DNA from: Prorocentrum cordatum
Lineage: Eukaryota; Sar; Dinophyceae; Prorocentrales; Prorocentraceae
Length of the DNA: 64,000 nucleotides
Direction: 5' to 3'
Assembly (NCBI GenBank): GCA_963575745.1
Contig: CAUYUJ010014324.1
Location: 74,810-138,809, forward strand
In this document: positions 18,677-62,840 of the stretch, piece after piece
Numbering within the stretch: position 1 is the first letter of the stretch
Layout of the letters: the number at the start of each line of letters is the position of its first letter
The notes under the pieces: model-generated
Database searches by the model: none
What the model was told of the DNA's origin: nothing
The model's input: the letters and a program-made list of their open reading frames with translations, nothing else
Translations under genes and position numbers: made by a program

Positions 18677-18735
<59 letters not shown>
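18677..18735. repeat. (TCA)n tract at left edge of the retroelement
   Basis: A perfect CAT/TCA triplet run. Read on the minus strand it is (TGA)n, and its last triplet (18733-18735) is the stop codon of the endonuclease ORF. A matching tract in the same orientation lies at 27359-27402. Confidence 0.97.
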
Positions 18736-18737
<2 letters not shown>

Positions 18738-20892
18738 CGGCCGAGCCGAGCTGGCGCGAGGGGGCGGGGGTGGGATCACGCTGATACCCTCCGCTGATGC
18801 GGCTCCCCTTTCCCGCCCCCGACGCCGACGCATCGCTGACGCCCTCTCCAGTGGCCCTCGCACTGCTGGCTGCCGCTGCCGCTGCGAGGCTCGCGAAGGA
18901 GTTCACTTGGGGCTGGGGTGGGATCGCGCTGTCCCCGTCCGCAGATGCGGCTCCCATCCCCGCCCCGTCAGACTGGCCCTCTGTGACGCCGACCTGCTCA
19001 CCCTCGTCGCCATTGCCACCCTCGTACTGGCTGAGGCGCTCGTAGGCGTAGTGCGTGCAGAGGTCCATCCACTCTACCTTGTCCTGCTGCGCGTCGGGGG
19101 CGTGCAGGCGCGGCAGCCAGCCGTTGGCCAGTCGCGCCAGTGTGCGCCTGACGCCTGCCTCACCCACCTCGATGGCACTCCACCCCCCCGCGTCCATTGG
19201 GCAGGTGGCAGGCCTGCGAAGCACTGGTGGTAGGGGAGCGACGTCGCGTATGCCATTCTCCGTCTCGGGATAGCCGTGGACGATGGGCGCGCCTGGGAGG
19301 GGCCTGCTGTAGCCACCCCGCTCCTCCAGCCAACGCCTGGACTCGTGGTAGCTGTCCGCCGTCCTGCGCAGCTCCTCCTCCCAGCAGTCGGGGTCGAGAA
19401 GGCCTAGCTGCTGAAGAATGCGCACCAGCTCATGCCTGCCTGTGCCGCCGCGACGCCAGGCAGACTCGCATACTTCCCTGGCCGTCTGCAGGCGACGCCC
19501 AAAGTTCTGGGCCAGGCCCGTCGCAATGTGCGTCGGCAGCCCCAGCATGCGAAAGATGTAGGGCACGCAATTTTCCAACCACTCGTTCTCGTCCGCGTAG
19601 TGGTCGGGGTTGCTGGGGTTGGAGACCCACCCGCGGGCACGGCGCCCGAGCACCCGCTTGTAGCGCTTGATTGCCCTGGCCTCCATACGCTCCGCCGCCC
19701 GCTCGTCGTTGTCCAGCTGGCACTGGATGAGCCCTGCCGAAGAAACGGCATCCGAGCCTCCGCCGACGAGCTGATGGAGCTGCGTGAAATAGTCGCTCAG
19801 ATGCATGAGCTTCTTGCCCTTGTAGCTGGCCTTGGGCCCCTTGATGGGGCGCGCCCTGGCCTGCGTGCCGAAGCTGAAGCTCGGCGGGCCCCCGCGGCCA
19901 CGGTGCAAACTGGCGTCGTCAGGCGGGATCTGGTAGATCCAGACGAGCTCGTTCTCCACTCCCCGGCACAGGGCGCGGTCTACCCCCGCCATTGCCTGCG
20001 TGTCCTCCCCCACGCCGATAGCGTCCCGCAACTCGTCGTGGTTCCACTCCTTGGCTGGCATAGGCCCATAAGGCCTGTCCTTGGGAAAGGCTGCGGGGCC
20101 TTTGACGCGGAATGACTGGCCAATGTCGCCCTGACAAGCCAAGGAGAGCTTGACCCCGATGTGGGGCCTGCACGGGTTGGCGTAGCCCTGCTCCGTCATG
20201 TTGAGGCGCTCGCACCCGCTGACGAGGTCCAGCATATCTACGCTGACGATGAACCAATCGAGCTCAGATGGCTCCTTGACGGGGGAGTGCTGGCAGGTGC
20301 CCTTGCCCGTGTCGACGACGTGTCCGCCCAGCTTGCGCAGCCAGTGCCCCGCGCGGAGGTGGAACCTGCCAGGCTCGACGTTCCAGTCCCCCGCCAGGAC
20401 CCAGGGCTTGCCAGTGCACTTCAGCGTGGCTCCAACCTGCTGCAAGACGCTCTGGCTGCGCTCGCCCACGTCGTCGTTGTCCAGGTAGACCGAGCCCAGC
20501 AGGAAGCCTCCAGGCACGAGGCCATTGATGTGCACGATGGTAGCGCGGCCCTCGGCTGCGTGGCAGCTGTCCTTGCTGCCGCCATCGCCTGGCCCGCACA
20601 TGCCACGCGAGGTGCGCACGGCCACGCCAGTGCCGCTGCTGACGGCGCGCTGGAGGCCTGCGCCGACCGAGCCCACCCCTGGGGTCAGCACGGCGCTCCA
20701 GCCAACCTGCCGACACCACTGCTCCTGCTCCACGGCGCGGTAGCCGTTGAGGTGGTGCTCCTGGATGCACAGTGCGTCGCCGAGGTGAGCCACCGCCACC
20801 GCCTGCTGTTGCGGGTCCTGCTGCTCGCCGAGGATGGTGGTGAAAGGGCCCCATCCGCTGCCGTTGAGGCTCACGATGGTGAAGTGGGGGCG
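18733..20892 (-). CDS. EEP-type (AP-like) endonuclease ORF of the retroelement
   Basis: The frame encodes an endonuclease/exonuclease/phosphatase domain at about 20885-20140. Expected catalytic positions are visible: Asn in TIVSLNGSG, Glu in CIQEHHL, Asp and Asn in LAGDWNVEP, Asp in LDWFIVS, and His in RPHIGV. In LINEs this enzyme nicks the target DNA to start reverse transcription. About 470 further residues follow without a recognised domain, including a basic segment (ERMEARAIKRYKRVLGRRAR) and an Ala/Ser/Gly-rich end. No reverse transcriptase motif follows on this strand. The stop TGA is the first unit of the flanking (TGA)n tract, so the native C-terminus is probably lost. The frame is open upstream too, with no clear start Met; it overlaps the end of the ORF1 frame. 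Confidence 0.8.
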
Positions 20893-20893
20893 G

Positions 20894-22098
20894 CTACCCC
20901 CGCTTCCCCCTTCTGCGTATCCCCGCGGAGCGGAGGCCTTGGAGGAGCTTCTGGGCACGAAGCTTGCGCATGGCGGCGGCTGCGGCGGCCTTGGCTGCGG
21001 CGTCGCCTGCTGCCTCGCCGTTGCCCACCTCGCCCGCCACGGCCTCTGCTGCCCCCTCCTCGGTGGCCTCTTCCTCCAGGGAGTCCAGGATGACGTCGAC
21101 GTCCTTCTCGTCGATCTCCTGCTCGTCGCCGCTCCCGTCGCGCTCCGCCGCGGCACCTGCTGTGGCAACGCGCTGTGCCAGACGCCGCAACTCTGCGACT
21201 TGGCCGTCCCATTGCTCAGCGAAGCCAGGGGCGAGCATGCCTGAGCACTGGTTAAGAGCGGCGAGGAAAGCGGTGGCTCGCTCCCCCTCGCTGAGTTGGG
21301 CGCCTGGGGACGCTGGGGCAACCGTCCCTCGCGGCCCTTCCTCCCGCTGCTGTGCTTCACGCTCGCGGAGCTGTTGCGCCAGGAGGTTGTCGATGAGCGC
21401 CTGGAGCTCCTTCTCGCCGGCCTGACTCTGCGCATGTTTGCCCTCCAGCTCGAGCTTGTGGGCCTGTAGTTCAGCGAGCTGCTTGTCCGCCGCCGAGATC
21501 CTGCTCGCCAAGGCCGCCGTGGTGGCCTCCTGGTTCTTCTGCTTGCGCTCCAACTCGCTGAGCTGGACTGATGTGGGCTTGGTTGCTGCCAACTCGTTCT
21601 CCAACTGCTGCGCCTCCTGCCGTTTGGATTCGAGAATGGCCTCCGCGCCGTCCACGCCCTCGATCTTCTTGATCTCACTTCGTAGCTTGCCCAATCGGCG
21701 GACACGTTCAGACTTGTCGTCAGGCTGCGACCCGACGCCTGCCGCCCCAGCGCCACCGCCATCGACTCCTGGTCCTGCTTGGCTGCTGGTCTCCAACTTT
21801 TTGACCTTCCTCCGCAACTGGTTGAGCTCGTGGCGTTCTCTGGCGTCCAGTTGTGACATGCCCTCCACCAAGAACTCGTACCAGAACCGCTTTCCCACCA
21901 GTCGTAGCCGCAGCTCCTGCAGACGTGCCGAGAGCCCCAATTCTTCTTGGCTCCGCACTGGGGGCAATCCCAGACCCTGGGCGCTGCACCGCTGCCGCCC
22001 GCGCCTGGAGCTTGGCCGCCCCGCTGTCCACGGCTGCCACTGGCTCTGCCGCCGCCGCCGCGCGCGGCACCACGAGCACCGCCTCCACGTCCTGCCAT
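20894..22098 (-). pseudogene. ORF1-like zinc-finger and coiled-coil protein, frameshifted
   Basis: I chose the ATG at 22098-22096 because it opens an RGG-rich segment (MAGRGGGARGAARGGGGR). A zinc ribbon-like finger follows with Cys 45, 48, 60 and 63 in WDCPQC...CRSCGYDWW, close to the RanBP2 pattern but with one extra spacer residue. Near 21894 the sensible reading moves to another frame, which carries a long Glu/Lys/Gln-rich coiled coil (for example LDARERHELNQLRRKVKKLE) and ends at a TAG at 20894. Going from finger to coiled coil needs a -1 shift or an indel; I see no canonical slippery heptamer. LINE ORF1 proteins are typically RNA-binding and self-associating, which this domain mix fits. 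The lesion may be decay, a sequencing indel or recoding. Confidence 0.65.
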
Positions 22099-22286
22099 TG
22101 GTCGAGCCCGCCGCGGCTGGGCTCCCAATCGGGCGACTGGGGCCGGGTGTCGGTGATGTAATATGGAAAGAACTGTGGCCCAAAAGGCCTCACTGAAAGC
22201 TTGGAAGATTGGGAATCTGACCCAAGAATGGACGCGACGGCTAGAGCCAGCCTCATGAGACCAGACATCTGCCCTGATCGCGCCAC
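22099..22286 (-). other. 5' leader between spliced leader and ORF1
   Basis: This 188-nt stretch follows the spliced leader and precedes the chosen ORF1 start. Two other ATGs occur soon after the leader in a frame that does not reach the zinc finger. It is the expected position for a 5' UTR of a trans-spliced mRNA. Confidence 0.55.
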
Positions 22287-22308
22287 CTTGAGCCAAAATG
22301 GCTACGGA
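22287..22308 (-). other. Dinoflagellate spliced leader (DinoSL), complete 22 nt
   Basis: Read on the minus strand from 22308, the sequence begins TCCGTAGCCATTTTGG and ends CTCAAG at 22287, matching the conserved DinoSL at all 22 positions. DinoSL is added to nuclear mRNAs by trans-splicing and is not normally encoded at gene 5' ends, so its presence implies that the adjoining minus-strand sequence was copied from a mature mRNA. No Sm-binding motif follows, which argues against an SL RNA gene. Its first base is the junction with the plus-strand half. Confidence 0.95.
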
Positions 22309-25300
22309 CATGCGTGAGGACAGCTGGCAGGCCCCCGAGGGCGCGCGCAACAAGTACGCGCGCAAGGTCCGCGAGTTGGAGGCCAGCGACCCCGGCGCAT
22401 GGGCCATCGCTGACGACGAGCACTACTGCTACCTGCAGGGCGTAAAGCAGTTCATGCGGTACCACGGCGGCAGGCGCGAGGGCAGCGACTGCAGCTCCGA
22501 CGGCGACGTCAGCAGCAGCGGCGACGGAGCAGCGCAAGCGAGCAGCAGGGCGCCCAAGCCCCCGTCCACGGTGGGCCTTCCCCTCGGCGCCCAGTGGGCA
22601 GCACGCGTGGCCCTGGCCGCCGAGTGCCCCAGCCTGCCCCCCTTGGCCGACTGGGCCGCTGAGGCCAGGGCCGAGGCGGAGGCCGATGGAGCAGCCTTCG
22701 CCGTCATTCGAGGCCAGGGCTTCAAGGAGTGGATCCGTCACTCCATGGCTGAAGGCGCAGGCGGGCTCCACGCCTATCGGCGCGGGCCCAGGGCATGGGC
22801 CCCTGACGACGAGTACAATGGGGCCCCAGCCCATGCCCCAGACCGAGTGAAGGTTGTGGCGAAGCAATCGTCAACAGAGGTCTGGCGGGTCAGGCGAGAC
22901 CGTGACAGGTTTCGGCCGCAGCTCCCGCGCTCTGGCGGCGAGGCCCTCCCCAGGCCCTCAGCCGATGAGCTGCGCATGGCCGCCAGGACCTTCAGGCACG
23001 GCACTGGCGTCGGCAGCGACCGCCTCAACCCGCGGAAGGCCGCGGACCTCAGCGACGAGCTTCTGGAGGCAGTCGTTGACTTCGGGATGAAGTGTGAGGA
23101 GATCGGCGGCTGGCCCGACGTCATCACGGACTCGCTTGTGGTCATGCTTCCGAAGCCACAGGGCGGGTTTCGGCCCATTGGGCTGCTGGGCTGGCTCCCT
23201 CGCCTTTGGAGCCGAGTCCGTCAGCCCGTGGCGCGGCGCTGGGACTCGCAGATTGACCCTGGCGTCGCAGGCGCCTTCTGGGGGGGGCGCGGCCGCGCGG
23301 CCGAAGAGGCCGTCTGGTGGCAAGCCCTGCGCGCAGAAGCCGCACACGCACGTGGAGAAGGAGCAGCAGCGGCGCTCATCGACCTATGGAAGGCCTACGA
23401 GCTCGTGGACCTGGCCATCATCCAGGGCCGTGGCGTCCTGGCTGGCTACCCTCGGCGCCTGCTGGGCATGGCCCTCACCCTGTACGCGGGGGAGCGCCGC
23501 TTCATGCTTGATGGTAGCGTGTCCGAGCCCTACCTGCTGGATGCGGGACTCATCGCGGGGTGCTCGCATGCGGGTCGGCTCCTCAAGTGCGGCCTGCTGG
23601 TGCCCGCGGACGAGCATGCGCGGCTGTGGCGGGCGCTCGAGCCCAGAGTCACCCTCGCCATCATGTTCGACGACTGCTGCGTCGGCTGCCACGGACCGAT
23701 GGCACAGGTCGCAGCCTACATGGCCCAGGCGGCGAAGGCGGTCATCTCACAGCTGGAGGCCCTAGGCTGCAAGGTCTCAGCAGCAAAGAGCGAACTGCTG
23801 GCCAGCTCGCCAGAGCTGGCATCACTGGTCGCCAAGCTAATGGGAGGCATCGCCTTCCCCATCGCCGACTCGGTCAAGAACCTGGGGGTCGACTACTGCC
23901 TCGACGGCCAGGCGTTCGTGGTCCTCGAGAAGCGGCATACGAAGGCGGCACCCCAGTTGCAGAGGTTGCACGCCATCCGCTCGCAGGAGACCCCAGCAGC
24001 AGCTCGAGTGGCGAACACTGGTCTGCGGCCTGCTACTCGCTATGGGCTGAGTGTGGTGGGTTGGCCGACGTCGCAGCTCAACAAGTGGAGGAGCCAGGTC
24101 AACGCCGTTCACCATGGGCGCGGCCAAGGCAAGAGCCTCAGCCTCAGTTTCCTCCTCAACAAGCGTCTGCACTGCGACCCGCTGCACGGCCACGTGGCGC
24201 TGCCCATTGTCGCATGGGCCAAAGCGGTGCAGTTCAACTCGGACAGTAGGGACCTGAGGGCCCTGGGCAGCGCTTTCGCAGGGGCTAGGACGTTGCTGGC
24301 CAGAGGCGGGCCTGAGGCGTTGGCTGGACGCGGGCCAGCTGCTGCGTGCGTGTTAGCCTGCCACCGCCTGGGCTGGACCGCCACACTGCCAGGGTTGCTC
24401 ACCAACGACAAGCAGCAGCCTCTGGACCTACGGACCCTGGGGGCCTCCACGCTCGCCAAGCACATCGCCGACGGCCACGAGAGGGCGCTGTGGCGAGCAG
24501 CGAGCAAGCACCCAGGGCTGGAGCACCTGCGCGATGGAGGCGCCCTGTCCAGTATCAGGCGCACACTGGCACGCAAGCGCATGAGCAAGCAGAAGGCCAA
24601 GCATATGAGTTCTGCCAAGAACGCGCTGGTCGGATGTCTCTGGCCCGTGGCGCGGCGGTTCTTTGAGGAGCGCCCATTGGCCTCCTCTCCTTGGTGCCCC
24701 AGGGGGTGCCCTGCGCACGGCGCAGTGCGGCGCCTGGCGTGGCAGTGCCCAGCCACCGAGGCTAGCCGCGCCGAGTGGATCTCCAACGAGGAGGCGGACG
24801 AGCGGTGCCCCCATGGCGACACCCCCTTCCGCTCCATCGTCGGTATGGCCAGCATCGGGGGAGAGGAGGACCCGCTCTGGTCCCGCGCTCTTGCACCCGA
24901 GCACCGAAGGGCCCTGCCACCGCCCACCGACACCAGGGAGGCGCGGAAGGAGGGCCGTGCCGACTTGGTGGGGCAGCCGCTCTCGGGCGACCTCTTCACG
25001 GACGGGAGCGTTCTGGACCCCAGCCTCGTCTCGGCGCGCGGCGGCTGGGCGGTCGTCGTCATGGGGCCCGACGGCGAGGCAGTCAGCCTCTTCGGGCCGC
25101 TCCCCTGGCCGTATCCACAAGAATCAGGGGCAGCGGAGCTGGTGGCGGCCATCGAGGGCATCCAGAGCTGCTTACCACCTGTGCGGATCTTCACGGACTG
25201 CAAGCTGCTCGTGGACGGCTTCGCGGCGGGCAAGGCGTGGTGCCTGCAGTGGCAGCGGCCTTACCGCGAGCTATGGGTGCGGTTCTGGGCGGCCCTCGAC

Positions 25301-26263
25301 GACGTGGGGGTCGGCAGCGTCACCATCCACAGGGTGAAAGCGCACGCCGCGCTGGCGGACGTGCAGGCGGAGCGCGTCACGGCCTGGCAGCGGCGGGGCA
25401 ATCACAGCGCCGATGCCCGCGCCGTGCAAGGCGCGCAGATGCATCCCAGCGACGACGACGTGCGAGATAGGAGCCGCAGGCAGGATCGTCTCGTCAAGAA
25501 GGTCTTCTGCTGGCTGGGTGCGGCGATGCAGGACGGCGACGCCGAGCTCACGGCAGCGGACGGGCACGAGGGCCCAGGCATGGAAGCAGTTCGGTGCGAT
25601 CGGCGCGGCTGCAAGATGCGATGGCGAGCTCGCTGCAGTTTCCCCGACTGCCCGCAGCGCGCGTGCGGGCGGCACGGGACGTGGCTGGACGTCGACGGCG
25701 ACACGGTCTGGGCCTGCCAGCGGTGCGCGGGCAGGGGCGACGCGCTCGCGGGCTCCTGGGCCTCTGGGGCCGAGAGCAGTGGCGGATCGGTAGCTGCAGC
25801 CGCGGCGCTCATCACGGCGGGCGCGGCGCTGCTGTCCCACAGTCAGGCCAGCGAGGCACCAGCACAGGTGGAAGGAGACGAGGCGCGTGCAGGGCGAGTC
25901 GGCAGCGGCGCGCCTGGCGGCGGCCAGCGGGGAAGCCCACCGACGTCTGGGGGCCCTTCTGGGGCCGTTGGCGGGCCCCCGCCGCTGCCGCCGCCGCAGC
26001 TCCCGCCGTGGTGGGGATTCGACGCCCACGGCTCCCACGACCTGTGGCGGGCTGGTAACCACCTCTTCTGCGTGAAGTGCGGCTACTGGACGCAGAGCCG
26101 TAGGATGGCGGGCCTGGCAGCGGAGTGCCCGAAGGCCCCCAATAACGATAGGCAGAAGGCGGTGCTCAGCAGGCTGAAGCGCGGCCTGCAGCCCGCTGGG
26201 ACGGGCGGCATCGGTGACCCTGAGCCGCTGCGGCGCATGCGCAGGCGCGTCGATGGTGGCTAG
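22298..26263 (+). CDS. Reverse transcriptase / RNase H / zinc-finger polyprotein
   Basis: An intact 1321-residue frame. RT motifs: GVGSDRLNPRKAADLSD (about 237-253), VVMLPKPQGGFRPIGLLGWL (281-300), motif A with Asp362 in ALIDLWKAYELVD, a variant motif B LIAGCSHAGRLL (418-429), and motif C with FDD at 457-459. A Cys/His cluster (CPRGCPAH...WQC, 800-817) precedes RNase H. RNase H has Asp902 (FTDGS), Glu947 (AAELVAA), Asp967 (FTDCK), and His1036/Asp1039 (GNHSADA), a full catalytic set. The C-terminus has more cysteine clusters (1100-1143) and a final FCVKCGYW finger. The enzyme would copy element RNA into DNA and degrade the template. The first ATG (22298) lies inside the antisense spliced leader, with an in-frame TGA just before it; ATG 22310 is an alternative. 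The native N-terminus is probably missing. Confidence 0.9.
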   Translation: MATDMREDSWQAPEGARNKYARKVRELEASDPGAWAIADDEHYCYLQGVKQFMRYHGGRREGSDCSSDGDVSSSGDGAAQASSRAPKPPSTVGLPLGAQWAARVALAAECPSLPPLADWAAEARAEAEADGAAFAVIRGQGFKEWIRHSMAEGAGGLHAYRRGPRAWAPDDEYNGAPAHAPDRVKVVAKQSSTEVWRVRRDRDRFRPQLPRSGGEALPRPSADELRMAARTFRHGTGVGSDRLNPRKAADLSDELLEAVVDFGMKCEEIGGWPDVITDSLVVMLPKPQGGFRPIGLLGWLPRLWSRVRQPVARRWDSQIDPGVAGAFWGGRGRAAEEAVWWQALRAEAAHARGEGAAAALIDLWKAYELVDLAIIQGRGVLAGYPRRLLGMALTLYAGERRFMLDGSVSEPYLLDAGLIAGCSHAGRLLKCGLLVPADEHARLWRALEPRVTLAIMFDDCCVGCHGPMAQVAAYMAQAAKAVISQLEALGCKVSAAKSELLASSPELASLVAKLMGGIAFPIADSVKNLGVDYCLDGQAFVVLEKRHTKAAPQLQRLHAIRSQETPAAARVANTGLRPATRYGLSVVGWPTSQLNKWRSQVNAVHHGRGQGKSLSLSFLLNKRLHCDPLHGHVALPIVAWAKAVQFNSDSRDLRALGSAFAGARTLLARGGPEALAGRGPAAACVLACHRLGWTATLPGLLTNDKQQPLDLRTLGASTLAKHIADGHERALWRAASKHPGLEHLRDGGALSSIRRTLARKRMSKQKAKHMSSAKNALVGCLWPVARRFFEERPLASSPWCPRGCPAHGAVRRLAWQCPATEASRAEWISNEEADERCPHGDTPFRSIVGMASIGGEEDPLWSRALAPEHRRALPPPTDTREARKEGRADLVGQPLSGDLFTDGSVLDPSLVSARGGWAVVVMGPDGEAVSLFGPLPWPYPQESGAAELVAAIEGIQSCLPPVRIFTDCKLLVDGFAAGKAWCLQWQRPYRELWVRFWAALDDVGVGSVTIHRVKAHAALADVQAERVTAWQRRGNHSADARAVQGAQMHPSDDDVRDRSRRQDRLVKKVFCWLGAAMQDGDAELTAADGHEGPGMEAVRCDRRGCKMRWRARCSFPDCPQRACGRHGTWLDVDGDTVWACQRCAGRGDALAGSWASGAESSGGSVAAAAALITAGAALLSHSQASEAPAQVEGDEARAGRVGSGAPGGGQRGSPPTSGGPSGAVGGPPPLPPPQLPPWWGFDAHGSHDLWRAGNHLFCVKCGYWTQSRRMAGLAAECPKAPNNDRQKAVLSRLKRGLQPAGTGGIGDPEPLRRMRRRVDGG

Positions 26264-27358
26264 GCTCTTTCTTGCCACGCTTGCCGCCTCGCTCTGTCTG
26301 CCATCAATTGAACAGACGTGTGTTTAGCACACGGCTGTTCGGGCTGCCTCTGCAAGGCAACCAAACCCTACTTTGGTGCCTCAGGTCGCGTGAGGGTGTT
26401 GCCTTGCGGGGGCAATCGCTGCTGCGAGGCGCGTTCCGCGCCGCTCTCCAGCAGCGCCGCCCGTCCCAGTGCTGAGGCGGAACCAAGTGCGCAGGGGTTT
26501 CCACACGCACGGGATCGGGCTCGGCTGCCAGCGGCAACGTAGCAGGTTGGCATCTGGCCAGGACCCGCTGCGATGTTGGTGGCGAAGTGCGGCCGCTTGC
26601 ACGGTGTTTAGTCGGGCGCGCTTGTGCCTTGCATGCTCGCCCTGCGGAAGCTGAACCAGGTGCGTAGGTTCGCCCACGCACGGGATCGGGCTCCGTCTGT
26701 TCTGTGTTGCTCTGCCCCCGCTCTCGGGTGGAGGCTGAACCAGGAGCGTAGGATTTCACACGCTCGGGATCGGGCTCTGCTGCCAGCGGCAACGTTAGGT
26801 CCCTTGGACGCGGCGATGCTGCAGGCTAAGCAGCCTTTGCTCGGCGCTCGTGTCCCGCTCTTGAGCTAGCTCGTGCCGTTGCACGGCTCTCGCTCGAGCG
26901 GAAGCTGGACCAGGTGTGTTGGTTTCCACGCACTGGAGCGTTCCGTTTAATGTAGTGGCTGGCGCGCTTGCCGCGACGGCCAGCGCTTCTTGCGCCCCAG
27001 TTTGCTCTGCTCTGTGCCGCCAGTCGGAGGCTGGACCGTGGTGGTAGGTTCGCACACCGCCATGGTTGCCTCCGAAGGCCACCGCATTGCAAACCTTCCC
27101 TGTCTGTGGCCTGGTGCCAGCGGGAGGTTTGCGGTGCTGTGGCACCTCGAGCCAGCATGCTGAGTTGCCGTGAATGCTCGATGCCCTGCCTTCCGCTTGC
27201 CTCGGCCGAGGCGGATGGCGTGGCCTCTAGTCTTCAGGCGAGGCTGCGAGTGTGCCTTGGGCACGGGTCAGGCCTTGCGTCCGCAGCGCCAGAGGGAAAG
27301 GCCATGGCTTCGGGAGGCTGTATCGAGCGGGGAGCTCCAGACCTTCTTGGATGCGTGG
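26264..27358 (+). repeat. 3' region of the retroelement with degenerate internal repeats
   Basis: No convincing gene. A motif of the type CTGAACCAGGTGCGTAGG with CACGCACGGGATCGGGCT recurs near 26475, 26651, 26733, 26900 and 27010. Two copies are followed by CTGCCAGCGGCAACGT. It ends at the (TCA)n tract. Confidence 0.65.
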
Positions 27359-27401
<43 letters not shown>

Positions 27402-27402
27402 C
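27359..27402. repeat. (TCA)n tract at right edge of the retroelement
   Basis: A perfect ATC/TCA run of 44 bp, same orientation as 18677-18735. It is either the target microsatellite or a 3' tail. It directly abuts the 90-bp satellite. Confidence 0.95.
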
Positions 27403-29260
27403 CACCGATTTCGGCATACCCCTCATACGTTTCGTGGCCCCATAGGGAGCTCCGCCGAAGGCCCCAGTGGCAGGGTACGCATGCCTCCCCACCACCCATT
27501 TCGGCACACCCCTCACACGTTTCGTGGCCCCATAGGGAGCTCCACCGAAGGCCCCACGCCCGCGCTCGGAGACGTTCCTCGCGGCTCAGACGCTCAGAAG
27601 TTCGCATTCGAAAGTGCGGCCTTCAGCTGCAGCGCTCCTCTGGAAGTGCCACAGACCGAACGGGGCGTCGTCGGCCACTGCTCGCCGGTTCCTCCCTGTC
27701 CTGGAAGCAGGCAGGCGGACCCCCGCAGTGCTCCTCACTCCTATCAGCGCCCCTGGGACAGTGCCGTTGTCGAGGCAGGAGATGCGATCCGAAGCGCGCC
27801 TTCCAGTGCCGTGGCAACAATTGGGGGCGCTGCAGAAGGCGCGCCTCCGCTCGGAAACGTTCCTCACTGTTCAGGCGCTCAGGAATTTGCATCCGAAAGT
27901 GCGGCCATCAGCTGCAGCAGTCCTCTGGGAGCGCCACAGACCGAACAGGGCGTCATCAGCCGCACCGCGCCGATTCCTCCCTCTCGTGGCAGCAGGCAGC
28001 AGGGTCCGCATGCCTCCCCACCACCCATTTCGGCACACCCCTCACACGTTTCGTGGCCCCATAGGGAGCTCCACCGAAGGCCCCAGTGGCAGGGTCCGCA
28101 TGCCTCCCCACCACCCATTTCGGCACACCCCTCACACGTTTCGTGGCCCCATAGGGAGCTCCACCGAAGGCCCCAGTGGCAGGGTCCGCATGCCTCCCCA
28201 CCACCCATTTCGGCACACCCCTCACACGTTTCGTGGCCCCATAGGGAGCTCCACCGAAGGCCCCAGTGGCAGGGTCGCATGCCTCCCCACCACCCATTTC
28301 GGCACACCCCTCACACGTTTCGTGGCCCCATAGGGAGCTCCACCGAAGGCCCCAGTGGCAGGGTCCGCATGCCTCCCCACCACCCATTTCGGCACACCCC
28401 TCACACGTTTCGTGGCCCCATAGGGAGCTCCACCGAAGGCCCCAGTGGCAGGGTCCGCATGCCTCCCCACCACCCATTTCGGCACACCCCTCACACGTTT
28501 CGTGGCCCCATAGGGAGCTCCACCGAAGGCCCCAGTGGCAGGGTCCGCATGCCTCCCCACCACCCATTTCGGCACACCCCTCACACGTTTCGTGGCCCCA
28601 TAGGGAGCTCCACCGAAGGCCCCAGTGGCAGGGTCCGCATGCCTCCCCACCACCCATTTCGGCACACCCCTCACACGTTTCGTGGCCCCATAGGGAGCTC
28701 CACCGAAGGCCCCAGTGGCAGGGTCCGCATGCCTCCCCACCCATTTCGGCACACCCCGGCACACCCCTCACACGTTTCGTGGCCCCATAGGGAGCTCCAC
28801 CGAAGGCCCCAGTGGCCTGGTTCGCATGCCTCCCCAACACCCATTTCGGCACATCCCTCACACGTTTCGTGGCCCCATGGGGATTTCCACTGAAGGCCCC
28901 AGTGACTGGGTTCGCATGCGCCCCCACACCCATTTCGGCACACCCCTCACACGTTTCGTGGCACCATAGGGAGCTCCACCGAAGGCCCCAGTGGCTGCGT
29001 TCGCATGCCGCCCCCACACCAATTTCGGCACACCCCTCACACGTTTCGTGGCCCCACAGGGAGCTCCACCGAACGCCCCAGTGGCTGCGTTCGCATGCCG
29101 CCCCCACAACAACTGCGGTGCACCCCTCACACGTTTCGTGGCCCCATAAGGAGCTCCACCGAAGGCCCCAGTGGCAACGTTCGCATGCCGCCCCCACACC
29201 CATTTCGGCACACCCCTCAAACGGTTCGTGGCCCCATAGGGAGATCCACCGAAGACGGTA
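27403..29260 (+). repeat. 90-bp satellite array, about 16 units
   Basis: Units of exactly 90 bp, each with CATTTCGGCACACCCCTCAC then ACGTTTCGTGGCCCCATAGG and GCCCCAGTGGC, recur from 27403 to 29260. Units at 28021-28720 are nearly identical; outer ones diverge. Because 90 is 30 codons, both strands stay open and encode 30-residue repeats, but an 89-bp unit (near 28270) and a longer one (near 28740) break the frame. There are no spacers, so it is not CRISPR-like. Confidence 0.97.
27558..28009 (-). repeat. Inserted piece of the 295-bp satellite inside the 90-bp array
   Basis: About one and a half units, opposite in orientation to the main array at 43290-45770. Shared marks are CGAAAGTGCGGCC, CAGACCGAACGGGGCG and AGGCAGGAGATGCGATCCGA. 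It interrupts one 90-bp unit between its GAAGGCCCCA and GGGTCCGCATG parts. Confidence 0.9.
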
Positions 29261-30778: not shown

Positions 30779-31790
30779 GACTCTGGGATGATCTGGGCTC
30801 GGTGTCATCCTCGTTCAGCGCCAACTCTGCGCCCGTGTGTTTGCCCTTCTTGTGGCGCCAGGCTCCGAAAATGAACCTCTTGCGCAACTTCTCGCAAGTC
30901 GCCTCGAACTGCTCGCCGGCTCCGCCCGCGACGTCGTCCACCGCGAGGCGCGCGATCCCGAGCGGGACCCTCTGGCCCCCCAGGCAGAAGACGCAGCCAT
31001 CGAAGGCGGAGCACTGACAGCCACTCTCCTTAGCGTAGTCCGTGAACGAAGATAACCGCTGCACTGGGGCATCTCCCAATCCGTAGAATTAGGTCGGGCA
31101 TGTTCCCCTACATGGGGATTGTGGGCGAAAAATAAAAAATAGTCAACACATACACCTAAAATAATCAAACACATGCTGAAAAAATCGTCCCAAGACTATT
31201 GTTTGACTATTTTTGGATATCCCTCCTGTAGAGGGACACGCCCGACTTATCCGTAGACCGTAGACGGCCATGGGCAACTCCGCCAGCGAGCCAGTCCCGA
31301 CGTCGGAGGCGCCTGTCCGATGCAAGTCCACATGCCGGCCTCCCTGCGTTCGATCGAGGGGGTCGCGTGCCGCGGAGGCGGAGGTGATGTCGGCCAGCTG
31401 GAGCGTCCACTTGTTGGTTCACAGAATCTGCAAGATGAGGAACACAGAGTCCTTGCCGACCACGGGACTGTGGGTCTCCAGGTCGAGCAAGTCGAGGTTG
31501 GCATGGCCCTGACCGTCCACGGTGCCTTGGCCATCCTCCAAGTGCCGTCGATTTGGAAAAGCAGGGGCACCTTGCTTGCATCTGCGTCCTCGGAGTCGCC
31601 ATCCTTGTCCGTCAACGCCCATCGGGGGACCATGATACAACGGGCCTTATCGGGATCCTGTCGAACTGCATCCGATTCCCCAGGTGGTAGTACTCGCGCG
31701 GCGCCAACGCGCATGATGTTAATCCACTCGCGCCGCTTGGCTGAGACATAGGGCTGATATCTGTCAGAGTGAGGAGGGCGGACGGTCATT
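30779..31790 (-). pseudogene. Ty1/copia-type reverse transcriptase fragment, decayed
   Basis: Pieces in order on the minus strand resemble the RVT_2 domain of copia polyproteins: REWINIMRVGAARVLPPGE and VPRWALTDKDG (about 31735-31610), DLLDLETHSPVVGKDSV in a second frame (about 31500-31430), LHRTGASDVGTGSLAELP and AVYGL in a third frame (to about 31258). After the inserted family A element come GDAPVQRL, CSAFDGCVFCLGG and LAVDDVAGG (31079-30930), the last being the catalytic VDD box, then LRKRFIFGAWRHKKGK. Frame changes and the insertion make it non-functional. Gag, integrase and LTRs are not recognisable. Confidence 0.75.
31088..31248. mobile_element. Family A TIR element inserted in the copia fragment
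   Basis: The element is 161 bp with ends TTAGGTCGGGCATGTTCCCC and GAGGGACACGCCCGACTT. ATCCGTAGA flanks both sides (31079-31087 and 31249-31257). Removing it brings two parts of the RT domain (AVYGL and GDAPVQ) together, which confirms the insertion. Confidence 0.92.
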
Positions 31791-41705: not shown

Positions 41706-44372
41706 TCACTGTTTCTTGCCCTTCCTGGGCGCGCGGCTGTCAGCGTGGCCCTTCGCCGCCTGGCGACCCCTGCAAGCGCCGCCGCTTCCGCCCAGGTACC
41801 GATGCCGCAGCTGCGCCCAATCAACGCCGAGGTCCAGCGCGTCGTTCACGGCCCGTGCGTCGCACTTGTGGCTGCGGAAGGAGCACAGGAGGCAAGTTAG
41901 CTGGTCGCGCCGTAGCGGGTCGAGCGCGCCTTTGCTGCTGGGCAAGGCATGCTGCTTGGCGAACGCGTGCCGGGCGCCTGCGAACATCGCCCCAAGGGTG
42001 ACTTGAAGCCGCCCCATCGCCTCGCCAGGTGTCTCCCCGGGAAGGTCCCACTGGATGTCGCCGATCTTAGCTTTATACAGCTGCTGTCCCGAGTCGGGGT
42101 CCAAGGGTTCTGGCCATTGGCACGCGGCGGGCCCCGTTGCCAAAGGTGGGGTGATCAGCGGCTGGTCCTTGGCCCGGCGACTGCTGCTGCTGCTGCTGCT
42201 GATGCTGCTGCTGCTGCTGCTGCTGCTTCTGCTGCCGTTGCTGCTGGCGCGCCCGCCGCCCGTTGTCTGCCGTCTGCCAGGCCCGCCAGCGCGGTCGACG
42301 TCGCTGGGGGCCAGGTTTCGGCCCGAAGGCGGCGGGGAGACTGGAGAGTCGCCGGTCGGGGAAGCCAGGCAGGGCGTCCACCCGCTGCTAGGCAGACGCG
42401 CTGGGGGCGCGTTCCGGCCGCGCCGCCGTCGCCCATCGGCGCTCGAGCTCGCGCCATTGCCAGAGAGGGAGGGGCCAGGATTAGAAGTGGCAGCCAGGGG
42501 AGTGCGGCGGCGGGCGGTTGCCTGCCCCTGTTCCTGTCAGCGTTTCAAGTCCTGCGCTGGCGCCACTTCCGCGCCCGTCCCGTGAGCGGCGGGCAGCTCC
42601 TGTTCAGCGGGCTCTCCCAGCGTGTGCTCCGCAAGATGCTCTGGTTCTCTACTCGGTTGCGCCCGCCCCTGGCCCTGCTGTCTGCGCTGCCGCGCGCCCT
42701 GGTCGCGAGTCTCCGGCGAACCAGCCCCGCTGTCCTTGACAGAGGGCTCGAACTCTGTTTGCGACAGCTCTGGTTGCTTGATTCCGCCGAAAAGACCGCG
42801 CATGGCGTCGAGCAGCGCGGCGGCAGCTGGGGCAGGGGCGCCCGGCGGGGCCATGCGGGCTGGCGCGGGCCGCGCAGTTGGCCGCCAGGCAGGGGCTGGA
42901 TCGCTTCCGGCAGCTCGGGCAGAAAGGGGCGTTGCCCTGAGGCGTGCGGGGGCAGGCCCCTTTCGCTGGCGTTCGCCTTCGGGCCCGTGCCCGCCCTCGC
43001 TCACGGGCGCGCCCCCATCGGTCGCCGCGAGGCTCTCGCCGGTCGCGGGAGTGCCGCCGGTCGTGCCAGGTGCGTGCACGTACGGCGACGCCGTTTCCAT
43101 CGCCAGAGCGCAAGTCTCTTTGTCGGGCGTGTCCTGGGCGCCTGGAGGGAGCGGCTGAGGTTCGCCGTCCACTCGGGCGGATTCATTGGCAGGGGCAGGA
43201 GGGCGAATGGGCGCGAAGGGGCTTCTCCCGACGAGCTGGCGGATGGCTTCGATGTCCTGCCCCTGTAAGGCTGGCCCACGGTCCCCCTGTTCGGTCCGTG
43301 GTGCTCCTAGAGGACTGCGGCAGCTGAAGGCCGCACTTTCGGAAACAACTTCCTGAGCGCCTGAGCTGCGAAGAAAATCTCCGAGCGCGGGCCCGCCCTC
43401 TGCAACGCCCCCAATTGTCGCCGCGGCACTGTCTCCAAGAAAGAGCGCGCTTCGGGTCGCATCTCCTGTCTCGACGACGACACTGCCCCAGGGGCGCTGA
43501 CAGGAGCGAGGGGCACTATAGGGGGTCTGCCTGCCTGATTCCAGGAGAGGGGGGAACCGGCGCGCTGCGGCTGACGCCGCCCCGTTCGGTCCGTGGCGCT
43601 CCCTGAGGACTGCTGCAGCTGATGGCCGCACTTTCGGATGCAAATTCCTGAGCGTCTGAGCTGTGAAGAAAGTCTCCGAGCGCGGGCGCGCCCTCTGCAG
43701 CGCCCCCAATTGTCGCCGCGGCGCTGTCTCCAGGAGGAGGCGCGCTTCGGGTCGCATCTCCTGCCTCGACAGCGACGCTGCCCCAGGGGCGCAGGCAGGA
43801 GTGAGGGGCACAATGGGGGCCCGCCTGCCCGGTGCCAGGAGAGGGGCGAAACGGCGCGCCGCGGCGCACCGCGCCCTGCTCGGTCTGCGGCGCTCCCAGA
43901 GGGCTGCGACAGCTGAAGGCCGCACTTTCGCGCGCGGATTCCTGAGCGTCTGAATTGCGAGGAACGTCTCCGAGCGCAGGCGCGCCCTCTGCAGCACCCC
44001 CAATTGTCGCCGCGGCACTGTCTCCAGGACGAGGCGCGCTTCGGGTCTCATCTCCTGCCTCGACAACGACACTGCCCCAGGCACTGCGGGGGTCAGCCTG
44101 CCTGCTTCAAGAGGGAGGAATCGGCGCGGCGCGGCTGACGACGCCCAGAGGACTGCTGCAGCTGATGGCCGCACTTTCGGATGCAAATTCCTGAGCGTCT
44201 GAGCTGTGGGGAGCGTCTCTGAGCGGAGGCGCGCCCTCTGCAGCGCCCCCAAGTGTCGCCGCGGCACTGGAAGGCGCGCTTCGGGTCGCATCTCCTGCCT
44301 CGACAACGGCGCTGTCCCAGGGGCGCTGATAGGAGTGAGGGGCACTGCGGGGGTCCGCCTGCCTGCTTCCAA
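41706..44372 (-). CDS. Possible protein gene interrupted by one in-frame TGA
   Basis: Function not recognised. One minus-strand frame is open from 44372 to 41706 except for a single TGA at 42539-42537. The first half (to about 43290) translates the 295-bp satellite. After it the composition looks like a protein: LLDAMRGLFGGIKQPELSQ (about 42830), a Gly/Ser/Pro-rich stretch, poly-Ser encoded by an AGC tract (42180-42245), then a C-terminal part with YKAKIGDIQWDLPGETPGEA, CLLCSFRSHKC and LGVDWAQLRHRYLGG, and a basic end (RAPRKGKKQ). The segment 42536-41706 beyond the TGA shares the frame exactly (396 bases from TGA to the next ATG). It could be one gene with a nonsense mutation or base error, two exons, or a fossil. 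No intron borders can be proven. Confidence 0.4.
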
Positions 44373-45770
44373 GAGAGGAACCGGCGAGCTGTGGCTGACG
44401 ACGCCCCGATCGGTCTGTGGCGCCCCCAGAGGAGTGCTGCAGCTGAAGGCCGCACTTTCGAACGCGAACTTCTAAGCGTCTGAACCGTGAGGAATGTCTC
44501 CGAGCGCGGGCGCGCCCTCTGCAGCGCCCCCAATTTGTCGCCGCGGCACTGTCTCCAGGAGGGGGCGCGTTTCGGGTCGCCCCACCCTGCTTCGACAGCG
44601 ACGCTGTCCCAGGGGCGCTGATAGGAGTGAGGGGCACAATGGGGGTCCGCCTGCCTGCTGCCAGGAGAAGGGGGAAACTGCGCTCCGCGGTTCGCGAAAC
44701 CCTGCTCGGTCTGTGGCGCTCCCAGAGGACTGCTGCAGCTGAAGGCCGCATTTTCGGATGCAACTTCCTGAGCGTCAGAAAAATAAGGAAAGTCTCCGAG
44801 CGCGGGCGCGCTCTCTGCAGCGCCCGCTATTGTCGCCGCGGCACCGTGTCCAGTAGGGGGCAAGCTTCAGGTCGCATCTCCTGCCTCGACAACGACGCTG
44901 TCCCAGGTGCGCTGATAGGAGTGAGGGGCGCTGCGGGGGTCCGCCTGCCTGCTGCCAGGAGAAGGAGGATACGGCGCGCCGCGGCGCACCGAGCCCTGTT
45001 CGGCCTGCGGCGCTCCCAGAGGGCTGCTGCAGCTGAAGGCTACACTTTCGGACGCGGATTCCTGAGTGTCTGAATTGCGAGGAACGTCTCCGAGCGCGGG
45101 CGCGCCCCTCGCAGCGCCCGCCCATCGCCGCGGCGCTGTCTTCAGGAGGGGGCGAGTCTCGGGTCGCATCTTCTGCCTCCGCAGCGACGCTGTCCCGACG
45201 GCGCTGATAGGAGCGAGGAGCTGTTGGGATGACGGTCTGCCTATTGCGAGGGGAAGGTGGGAATGGCGCGCTGAGGCAGGCGAGCCCCTTTTCGCCCTGG
45301 ATCTCGCTTTGCGGACTGTTGCAGCTGCCGGCCGCACTTTCGGAAACGAGCCCCGGTTCTGCTCCAGGGGCACGGCTGACGGCCGTCCGATCGCTTTGTA
45401 TCAGTGGGGGCGCCAGGATCACGGCTGATGGCCGTCTGATCGCCTTGCATCAGGGGGATGCCAGAATCACGGCTGATGGCCGTCTGCGCGCTTTGAAATT
45501 TGCGAGGGGGGTCTTTGAGCGCGCGCTCGCCCCCTGCAGCAAACCCATCTGCCGCCGCGTTTCCAGGAAGGGGCGCGCTTTCGGGCGCCTCGGCGGCGCC
45601 CGCGAAACCACTGCGCCTGGGGCGCTGATAGGCGCGAGTAGCTGGAGGGGCGCCTGTTTGCTTGCCTCCAGGGGAGGGAAGGACCGACCCGCTGTGGCTG
45701 ACGATCGCCTGTTCTTTCTGTAGCTCTCGATGGCGACTGCTGCGGCTAACGGCTGCGCGGCAAGATGCGC
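43290..45770 (-). repeat. Satellite of about 295 bp, 8-9 tandem units
   Basis: The anchor GGCCGCACTTTCGGA-type recurs near 43328, 43624, 43917, 44168, 44448, 44745, 45042 and 45330, spacing 251-297 bp. Each unit has TGAGCGTCTGA, CTCTGCAGCGCCCCCAATTG, TCGGGTCGCATCTCCTGCCT and GGGGTCCGCCTGCCTGC. Unit lengths are not multiples of three, so no frame persists. An inverted piece lies at 27558-28009. Confidence 0.95.
45355..45500. repeat. Short 56-bp tandem repeat with CGGCTGATGGCCGTC
   Basis: Three units, each with TCACGGCTGATGGCCGTCTG. The core resembles the CGGCTGACGGCCGTC motif of the 100-bp repeat at 40590-40935. Confidence 0.85.
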
Positions 45771-59600: not shown

Positions 59601-62600
59601 CGTCCTGTCCTGACTCTCCCCGTCAGTCACCCCCCGCTTCGCGCCGCTGCCGCCGCTGTCGTTGCTCCCCCCGTCCGGCGCAGAAGATATCGCGCCCCTC
59701 GCAGTCTGGCTTTGCACGCCGCCAGGCTAGGGCGCGTCGGCCACCGCCGCTGTCGCCGTCGCCGCCGCCCGAGTCGGCGGCCCTGACGACGGGGGCGACG
59801 GCGACCGTGGCAGTGCCGACGCGCGCCCAGAGCCCAGCAACACACGAGGGTGCAAACCCGAGGTGTCTGGCCGATGCTCTGGGGGGAGGCTGCGCTCAGG
59901 GGGGGCTGGAGTACCGCTCAACGATGCGCGGTCAACCGCGCCTCTGCAGAATGGGCTTTGGTTTCGGCTTCGGCTGTAAGTACGCCGGGAAACGTCGTCG
60001 GGCCAGCTCGCCCAAGTCGGGTTTCCCGCTCGTGCGGGTGTTCCCATCTGTTGTTTTGTCGTGTTTTGCTCTCCGCGTCGGTCGTGCCCCCCCCCCCCCC
60101 CCGGCAGCTTCCGCCGCCCCCCGCCGTCGTCAGAAGATATCGGGCCCCTCGCGCTCTGGCCTTGAGCGCCGCAAGGCTTGGACGCAGGTGCTCCCTCTGC
60201 TTTGTCTTGTCTTGCCTGCCTCCCCTCCATTTTCCTGCTGCGTTGCCCCCCGCGCCCGGCCCGGAGGATATCGAACTCCCCGCAATCTGGCCATGCGCGC
60301 TTCCAGTCTTGGACGCGTCGGCCGCCGCCGCCGTCGCCGTCGCCGCCGCCCGAGTCGGCGGCCCCGACGGCGGGGCCGCGGCAGCCGTGGCAGCGCCGAA
60401 ACGCGCCCGACGCCCGGCAAGGCACGAGGGCGCAAATCCGACTTGTCCGACTGATGCTCTGGGGGTGGGGGCCTGTGCTCAGGAGGCGCTGCGGCGCCGC
60501 TTGACGATGTGCCGTCGACCAAATTTGCGCGGCGGGCCCTCTCCATTCCCCGTCGCATGGTGATGTGGCTTCGGCCGCGACGCCGTGGAGCGCCCTCGTG
60601 CCAGATCGACCGAATCGGATTTTCTGTTCGCGCGGGTTCTCCCCTTCTGTCCTGTTTTGTCTTGCGTTGCCTGTCTAGCTCTGCCCATCGGTTTTACCCT
60701 CCTCCCTGCCGCTGCCGTTGACCTCTCCGTCCGGCTCGAGAGTGCATCGAACTCCGCGCAGTCGCGCCGCCAAGATTGGGCGCGCCTGCCGCCGCCGTTG
60801 CCGCTGTCGCCGCCGGCCGAGTCGGCGGCCCTGACGAAGGGGCGACGGCGGCAATGGCAGCGCCGGAACGCCCCCAGAGTCTAGCGAGGCAGGCGGGTGC
60901 AAACCCGACGTGTCTGGCTAGGGGCGCGTGCTCAGGAAGGCTGCAGCGCCGCTCAACGATGCGCCGTCGACCAAGTCTGCGCGGCAGGCCCTCATGATGT
61001 TTCTGTGCACTTCAACTTTGACTTTGGCTTCAGCTGCTGGTGCACCGCGAAACGCCTGCGGGCCGCATCGCGCGAGTCGGATTTTCCGCTCGCGCGGGGG
61101 CTCCCCTCTGTCTTGTCCTGCCTTGTCCTGCTCTCCCGGTCGGCATCCCCCCCCCATGCTGCTGCCGTTAATCCCCCCGCCTGGTTCAGAATATATCGCG
61201 CACCTCGCAGTCTGGCTTGGCGCGCCGCCAAGCATGGGCGCGTCGGCCACCGCGGCGTCGCCGAAACGCGCCCAGAGTCGAACCGCGGTCCATCAAAAAC
61301 TGCAGGGTGGACCCTTCCGATGTCTCTGTGTACTTCAGCTTTGGCTTCGGCTTCAGCTGTGGGTGCACCGTGAGACGCCCTCGGGCCAGATCGCCCAAAT
61401 CTGATTTTCCGCTCGCGCGAGAGCTCCCCTGTGCTGCATTGTATTGTCTGGCTCTCCCCGTCGGTCCTTCCTGCTCTCCCTGCTACTGCTGTTGCTCCCC
61501 CCGTCTGGCTCGGAGGATATCGGGCCCCTCACAATCTGGCTTTGCGCGCCGCCAGGCTTGGGCGAGTTGGCCGCCGCCGCTGTCGCTGTCGCCGTCGCCC
61601 GAGTCAGTGGCCCTGACGAGGGGGCGACGGCGGCCGCGGCAGTGCCGACGCGCGCCCAGAGCCGAGCAAGGCACGAAGGTGCAAAACAGAGGCGCCTGGC
61701 CGATGCTCGGGGGGGGGGGGGGGCTGTGCTCAGGGGGGGCTGCAGCGCCGCTCAACGATGCGCTGTCAACCGAATCTGAAGGGTTGGCAAGTCCCATGCT
61801 CCTGTGCATTTCAATTACGGTTTCGGCTTCACCTGTGGGCGCACCGTGACACGACTTCAGGCCAACTCACCCGGGTCGGATTTCCCGCTCGCGCGGGCAC
61901 TCCCATTCTGTCTTGTCTTGTCATGCGTTGCTCTCCCCGTCGGTCTTGTCCCCCGTCTCCCTGCTGATGCTGTTGCCCCACCCGTCCGGCGCAGAAGATA
62001 TGGAACTCCTCGCAATCTGGCTCTGCACGCCGCCAGGCTAGGACTCATCGGCCACAGCCACCGTCGCTGTCGCCGTAACGTGAGTCGGCGGCCCTGACAA
62101 AGTGGCGGCAGCGGCCGTGGCAGAGCCGAAACGCGCCCAGAGTCCAGCAAGTCACGAGGGTGCAACGCCGACTTGTCTGGCTGATGTGCTTGTTGGAGGG
62201 CTTGTGTTCAGGGGGGGCCGCAGCGCCGCTCAACGATTTGCTGTCGACCACACCTGCAGGGTGGGTCCTTCTGATTTCTGTGCGCTCCAGTTTTGGTTTC
62301 GACTTCAACTGTGGGTGCACTGTGAAGCGTCTTCAGGCCAGATCACACGTGTCGGACTTTCCGCTCGCACAGGTGCTTCCCTCTGTCTTGTCCTCCCTTA
62401 TTTTGCTCTCCCCGTCGGTCTTGCCCCCCCCCTCCCTGCTGCTGCTGCTGCTGCTCCCCCCGCCAGGCTCAGAGGATATCGAAGTCTTCGCAGTCTGGCT
62501 TTGCGCGCCGCCAAGTTTGGACGCGTCGGCCGCAGCCGCTGTCGCTGTCGCCACAACATTGAGTCGGTGGCCCTGACAAGGGGGCGACGGCGGCAGTAGC

Positions 62601-62840
62601 AGCGCCGAAACGCGCCCAGAGTCCGGCAAGACATGAGGGTGCACACCGGACTTGACTGGCTGATGCTCTGGGTAAGGGGGCCTGTGTTCATGGGGGGCCG
62701 CAGCAACGCTCAGAGTGCTGTTAACCAAGCCTGCAAGGTGGGCCCTTCGCATTTTGTCGTCGGCTTCAGCTGTGGGTGCACCGTAAAACGCCTTCGGGCC
62801 AGCTCACCCGAGTCTGATTTTCCGCTCGCGCGGGTGCCCC
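56640..62840 (+). repeat. Satellite array, about 14 units of roughly 457 bp
   Basis: The anchor GCCGAAACGCGCCCAG recurs near 56659, 57132, 57582, 58049, 58382, 58848, 59356, 59815, 60393, 60861, 61258, 61644, 62125 and 62606. Each unit has, in order, GCAAACCCGACTTGTCTGGC, a G-run, CTGCAGCGCCGCTCAACGAT, CTTTGGCTTCGGCTTCAGC, GATTTTCCGCTCGCGCGGGT, TCTCCCCGTCGGTCTTG, a C-run, CTCGCAGTCTGGCTTTGCGC and GTCGCCGCCGCCCGAGTCGG. Unit lengths vary from 333 to 578 bp and are mostly not multiples of three, so the 300-500 residue plus-strand frames are chance. The array ends abruptly in a pyrimidine tract after CGCTCGCGCGGGTGCC. Confidence 0.95.

Follow-up and report, generated by a model that had tools for sequence, protein, structure and literature searches.

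A LINE copy with its 5' half inverted and joined at a dinoflagellate spliced leader: a probable product of twin priming

An 8.6 kb retroelement was found in two opposite halves between two perfect (ATC)n arrays in a 64,000-nucleotide stretch of DNA, which we call the window. The minus-strand half carried a zinc finger, a coiled coil and an EEP endonuclease and was headed by an exact dinoflagellate spliced leader. The plus-strand half carried a reverse transcriptase (RT), an RNase H and further fingers. Judged from its sequence, the element is probably one LINE copy that was inserted by target-primed reverse transcription with twin priming, and we gave this reading a probability of roughly 0.77. 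Twin priming had been put forward in the earlier note, and it was supported by the leader at the junction, the consecutive ORF parts, the open inner breakpoints and the matching outer arrays. The copy is best read as one more case of a known copying accident, in which the 5' end is unusually complete.

Results

Layout of the element and its internal junction

The window resembled dinoflagellate nuclear DNA: it was mostly GC-rich, held 143 tandem-repeat entries and contained one exact spliced leader. The coordinates of the element are given in Table 1. The earlier note had claimed that the endonuclease and RT halves lie head to head on opposite strands, and this was confirmed by the domain matches and by a profile of six relatives. 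We then located the junction from the leader. The sequence CCGTAGCCATTTTGGCTCAAG was present exactly on the minus strand at 22287-22307, and it was the sole match in the window with up to three mismatches allowed. The chance level was a mean of 0.00 in 100 shuffles. The dinoflagellate leader is given as DCCGUAGCCAUUUUGGCUCAAG, where D is U, A or G (PMC6050394). The minus-strand base at 22308 was T, which is compatible with the opening D and completes the full 22-nt leader. The join lay between 22308 and 22309, with an ambiguity of 1 nt. The junction therefore fell exactly at the first base of the leader, as had been proposed, and the RNA-5' end of the inverted half faced it. This placed the complete DinoSL in genomic DNA at the mRNA 5' end of the minus half, as in a DinoSL-tagged retroposed sequence. 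Behind the leader, no second leader relic was seen in the probable 5' UTR (15-mer, up to two mismatches). Repeated leader-tagged copying could stack leaders, and trans-splicing at the AG end of an old leader might replace it in each round.

Table 1. Features of the element and its flanks (positions in the window)
Feature	Positions	Strand	Basis
Left flank, perfect (CAT)n array, 19.7 copies; target microsatellite or target-site duplication	18677..18735	+	TRF, 100% matches
Inverted 5' segment: leader, 5' UTR, zinc finger, coiled coil, EEP, first part of linker	18736..22308	-	frame open to the microsatellite
Open coding stretch to the microsatellite, without clear match in relatives	18736..19821	-	codon usage
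First part of EEP-RT linker	19822..20106	-	linker profile positions 16-123, 14.3 bits
EEP (APE-like) endonuclease domain, limits by eye	20106..20883	-	PF03372, six-relative profile
Coiled coil, second frame	21330..21889	-	heptads by eye; codon usage best in that frame
CxxC zinc finger (WDCPQCG...CRSCGYDWW), first frame	21895..21972	-	by eye
Probable 5' UTR, lower GC, without clear frame signal; candidate Met codon 22098-22096	22099..22286	-	start codon by eye
Complete 22-nt dinoflagellate spliced leader, mRNA 5' end	22287..22308	-	exact match and PMC6050394
Sense 3' segment, 5' end cut within ORF; ORF to 26263	22309..27358	+	ORF, codon and profile analysis
Last part of EEP-RT linker	22643..23056	+	linker profile positions 201-341, 62.5 bits
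Reverse transcriptase; D362, D458 and D459 invariant in five aligned sequences	23150..23890	+	RVT_1, alignment
RNase H; D902, E947, D967 and D1039 invariant in five aligned sequences	24992..25435	+	PF00075, alignment
C-terminal Cys/His fingers; last (LFCVKCG) matches relatives	25592..26100	+	by eye; profile
3' UTR, 1.1 kb, five degenerate copies of a 48-nt repeat	26264..27358	+	repeat family 26475-27073
Right flank, perfect (ATC)n array, 14.3 copies	27359..27401	+	TRF, array count

Domains of the two halves

The EEP domain matched PF03372 with E 4.4e-05 and 23.8 bits, just under the cut-off of 24.5, and the catalytic-type N, E, DxN, D and H motifs were present by eye. The zinc finger gave no Pfam zinc-finger match; Rubredoxin was obtained only at E 0.16, below its cut-off. 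The minus strand had been said to carry zinc finger, coiled coil and EEP. All three were present, but the coiled coil lay in a separate frame: the finger and EEP were in the ORF 18733-22422 and the coiled coil was in the minus-strand ORF 20894-22189. This difference in frame implied two frame changes, near 21890 and 20910, which cancel out. These may be mutations or base-call errors, and programmed frameshifting was considered by eye as a further conceivable cause. The stop codon of the minus frame was the first TGA of the microsatellite array.

The plus ORF was open from its first complete codon to its stop. RNase H was above its Pfam cut-off (E 1.5e-07, 32.1 bits against 25.8), and RVT_1 was below (E 0.0079, 16.4 bits against 29.6). 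The last finger was matched by positions 1590-1634 of the six-relative profile at plus ORF residues 1255-1302 (iE 0.0011). The Pfam support was modest, and the relatives make the domain assignment firm. We also compared the profile A4, which included the row of the plus ORF, with known structures. It matched ExoIII, LINE-1 ORF2p and RNase H structures in that order along its length, and the best single match was a group II intron RT (E 8.9e-06). When the EEP stretch alone was searched against PDB, one meaningless match was returned (E 0.78). Together with EEP and RT, the element showed no LTRs among the repeats listed, and no integrase family was among the Pfam matches of the frames scanned. 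This is the composition of a non-LTR retrotransposon (LINE). A poly(A) tail was not seen on the element, which had microsatellite flanks instead. As a guess, the 48-nt repeats of the 3' UTR possibly form a structure that is read by the element's own RT.

Relatives of the two ORFs

Protein searches were performed to find relatives, and those candidates that shared most words were scored: 7987 for the plus ORF, 7990 for the minus ORF and 7988 for a profile of alignment A3. Nine relatives (P0001-P0009) were obtained. The plus ORF, whose search reached proteins of up to about 2310 aa, gave four, and the A3 profile gave six, one of which was already among the four. The minus ORF alone gave no homologue at E ≤1e-4 among the candidates scored. 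No relatives were found among viral contigs or among bacterial and archaeal genome contigs, and no further copies of the element were found within the window. The relatives were distant, with about 23-32% identity. Six of the nine (P0001, P0003 and P0005-P0008) matched both ORFs, and EEP preceded RT in one ORF in all six. P0002 and P0004 matched the plus ORF only, and P0009 matched the minus ORF only. These three may have been cut by contig ends, and they could in principle come from split elements. Since the A3 query itself held two collinear proteins, its finds, five of the nine relatives, lean towards the collinear order.

A profile was built from the six relatives as whole proteins, without window sequence, and was run on the open frames of the window of at least 60 codons. 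Positions 94-439 matched the minus ORF at residues 489-845, corresponding to 19888-20958, with E 6.1e-45. Positions 547-1514, together with those of the last finger, matched the plus ORF with E 9.4e-159. These E-values refer to the small set of open frames in the window only. No other open frame of this set was matched at E ≤1e-3. It was therefore well supported, by comparison with distant relatives, that the minus and plus ORFs are consecutive, non-overlapping parts of one collinear ORF. The possibility that the two strands hold unrelated families was ruled out by this profile, which matched both ORFs consecutively.

The linker and the inner breakpoints

A second profile of 341 positions was made from the six EEP-RT linkers. 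Each ORF matched a different part of it (Table 1), and neither score was reached in any of 1000 block shuffles, where the best were 8.0 bits for the minus ORF and 5.3 bits for the plus ORF. When whole frames were scored, these ORFs ranked first and second of 666 (58.3 and 12.2 bits), and the third frame had 4.4 bits. The minus ORF gave a further match at positions 270-320, which would overlap with the plus part, but it was not significant at -0.2 bits. The matched linker blocks were kept without significant overlap. The middle of the linker was longer than in the distant relatives: 362 aa on the minus ORF and 111 aa on the plus ORF lay between the matched blocks, against 77 profile positions. 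P0006 and P0008 carry inserts in the same place. This greater length means that extra or foreign sequence near the break is possible.

Codon usage and GC phase were used to see where the frames end. On the plus strand, third-position GC stood at about 0.9 from the first complete codon beyond the leader, and the stretch just ahead of this codon contained stops and had no frame signal. With the codon usage of the plus ORF as reference, the coding frame of the minus strand scored best of the six frames down to 18790, and it was open to 18736. The GC phase signal of this frame was weak over its last ~150 nt (from about 18880), which were rich in Ala, Ser and Gly codons. Each inner breakpoint thus fell inside an open coding frame, and no 5' UTR was evident on the plus strand.

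Outer ends and the rest of the window

The window held 36 perfect trinucleotide arrays of at least 8 units, of which 29 were of the AGG type. Only two of the 36 were of the ATC class, and these adjoined both outer ends of the element on the same strand. With (ATC)n on both sides, a target-site duplication is inseparable from the array itself. Apart from these arrays, no long direct repeat bracketed the element among the best 20 of 26 direct families. An imperfect ATC-like array with 71% matches was present at 443-486.

Other repeats were observed elsewhere. An array of a 90-nt unit was found at 27999-29254 (13.9 copies, 93% matches), and two copies of apparently the same unit, by eye, stood directly after the right (ATC)n array at 27400-27556. 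Arrays of a 294-nt unit at 43285-45344 were partly open on the minus strand (644 aa, 42537-44471) and gave no Pfam match. An array with a period of 481 nt was at 61451-62752 (2.7 copies). The minus-strand open frame 31247-31789 resembled, by eye, what we take to be part of a Copia-type polyprotein; Pfam gave no match for it. Overall, seven open frames of the window beyond those of the element had no Pfam match at E ≤0.001, and Rfam gave no match in the window at the gathering threshold.

Discussion

Twin priming as the origin of the inversion

Twin priming was reportedly described by Ostertag and Kazazian in 2001. In this process, a sense 3' cDNA is joined to an inverted cDNA that was primed in the same RNA at one target site, according to PMC2837659. 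It predicts an RNA-5' end that points toward the junction, two halves of one transcript and target sequence flanking the whole, and the element fits each of these. The 3' end of the trans-spliced element mRNA would have paired with an (ATC)n microsatellite that had been nicked. First-strand synthesis would have copied the 3' UTR, the RNase H and RT regions and some of the EEP-RT linker before it halted. On the same RNA, the other target strand may have annealed within the linker and served as primer for a second cDNA, and this would have extended to the first nucleotide of the spliced leader. Joining of the two cDNAs would have left the inverted 5' half head to head with the sense 3' half, flanked by the microsatellite. 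We infer the priming steps, the use of one RNA rather than two and the role of the arrays as the target.

Human L1 offers a measure for such events. In PMC12016303, 5' inversions are given for 18.4% of germline insertions (165 of 897), and for somatic and germline inversions together, the two breakpoints lay within 20 bp of each other in the element in 132 of 287. The cDNAs were 3.57 kb (inverted) and 5.05 kb (sense) in our element. The human germline medians given in the same source are far shorter, at 751 bp and 571 bp, respectively, and this difference counts against the reading.

Weighing of the other explanations

The layout could also have arisen if two target nicks had primed cDNAs on two RNAs of one family, which were later joined head to head. 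Such dual priming has been proposed for L1 (PMC2837659). It yields the same layout, and the long stretch between the matched linker parts needs no single RNA. However, two RNAs need not give the consecutive, non-overlapping parts that were found, and no meaningful duplication was seen between the tail of one half and the head of the other. A comparison of 18736-20222 with 22309-23800 gave only 11-nt matches by blastn; by tblastx, two matches of 29 and 21 residues (E 0.002) were obtained with the query read in reverse. We considered this origin unlikely.

A normal insertion in a single orientation, with the 5' half turned round later by a chromosomal inversion, would likewise give complementary halves and the leader at the junction. 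However, one of its breakpoints would need to hit the boundary between leader and target exactly by chance. In addition, no inverted repeat paired the neighbourhoods of 18736 and 22308 among the best 25 of 29 pairs. Arms of inverted repeats did start at 22311 and 22317, just past the junction, but their partners were elsewhere, at 25710 and 20548. This history appeared slightly less likely still.

We gave about the same small weight to an assembly artefact, in which parts of one or two copies were misjoined at 22308. Assemblies can break down at microsatellites and at a leader sequence that is found repeatedly in dinoflagellate genomes, and the two frame changes of the minus half could be base-call errors. 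However, a misjoin would have to coincide with the first base of the leader. No repeat was seen across 22308 among the best 20 of 26 direct families and the best 25 of 29 inverted pairs, and the outer arrays agreed on the same strand.

The earlier note had also raised a conserved divergent retroelement with two transcripts, which would have EEP and RT transcribed outwards from its centre. Here the layout would be stable and propagating, with the two activities complementing each other in trans from opposite strands, and the copy would be typical. Both halves retain much coding capacity, ATGs of the plus frame are present at 22298 and 22310, and three of the nine relatives show one domain only, which cut contigs would explain too. 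However, the six relatives with matches to both ORFs are without exception collinear, and the frame signal of the plus strand starts from the junction with no 5' UTR evident. There is also a logical problem, because an RNA that starts at the leader carries the minus half only and so could not propagate the layout. The results did not support this architecture, and we regarded it as very improbable.

Two independent insertions that adjoin head to head by chance are scarcely credible: each half separately ends at (ATC)n, but the minus part is without the RT, 3' UTR and tail that target-primed copies normally keep, and the halves are complementary without significant overlap and with nothing between them.

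What the leader adds

With the spliced leader, the start of the copied mRNA can be placed to the base, which is not possible for most LINE insertions. The leader also points to a mature, trans-spliced transcript as the template. If twin priming is true, the second cDNA extended as far as the end of this RNA. Relics of DinoSL in genomic DNA are an established sign that retroposition has occurred in dinoflagellates (PMC6050394, PMC12014239). Inverted copies that contain a leader could be used across dinoflagellate genomes to gauge the rates and processivity of twin priming far from mammals. The microsatellite flanks raise the question of whether this retroelement family targets (ATC)n. Many leader-tagged inversions, or a shared head-to-head layout, in the host genome would raise the interest of this copy. 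Our literature search found no paper that links dinoflagellates with twin priming and none on LINE inversion by twin priming in protists; novelty in print is claimed no further than that search.

Comparison with known systems

The element resembled mammalian twin-primed (5'-inverted) LINE-1 in its inverted 5' and sense 3' parts, its target flanks and its inner breakpoints within the element. It differed from mammalian LINE-1 in its putative dinoflagellate host, its much longer cDNAs and its microsatellite flanks, with no poly(A) tail seen. In addition, its inverted part reaches the exact mRNA 5' end, which is marked by the spliced leader. The domain order of EEP, RT and RNase H was shared with EEP-encoding LINEs that have RT and RNase H, which we take to be I-like elements. 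In contrast to these, a coiled coil and a CxxC finger lay ahead of EEP, by eye.

LINEs have been described in dinoflagellates, including SymbioLINE-Dnmt of Symbiodinium, and the present element shares with it a LINE architecture in a dinoflagellate (PMC5890265). SymbioLINE-Dnmt has a DNMT in an ORF upstream of RT according to the same source, whereas no DNMT family was found in the three frames of our element that were scanned. The likeness to DinoSL-tagged retrogenes of dinoflagellates lies in the genomic leader, which marks reverse transcription of a mature trans-spliced mRNA (PMC6050394, PMC12014239). Unlike in those retrogenes, the copied RNA was the retroelement's own, and the tagged part was inverted.
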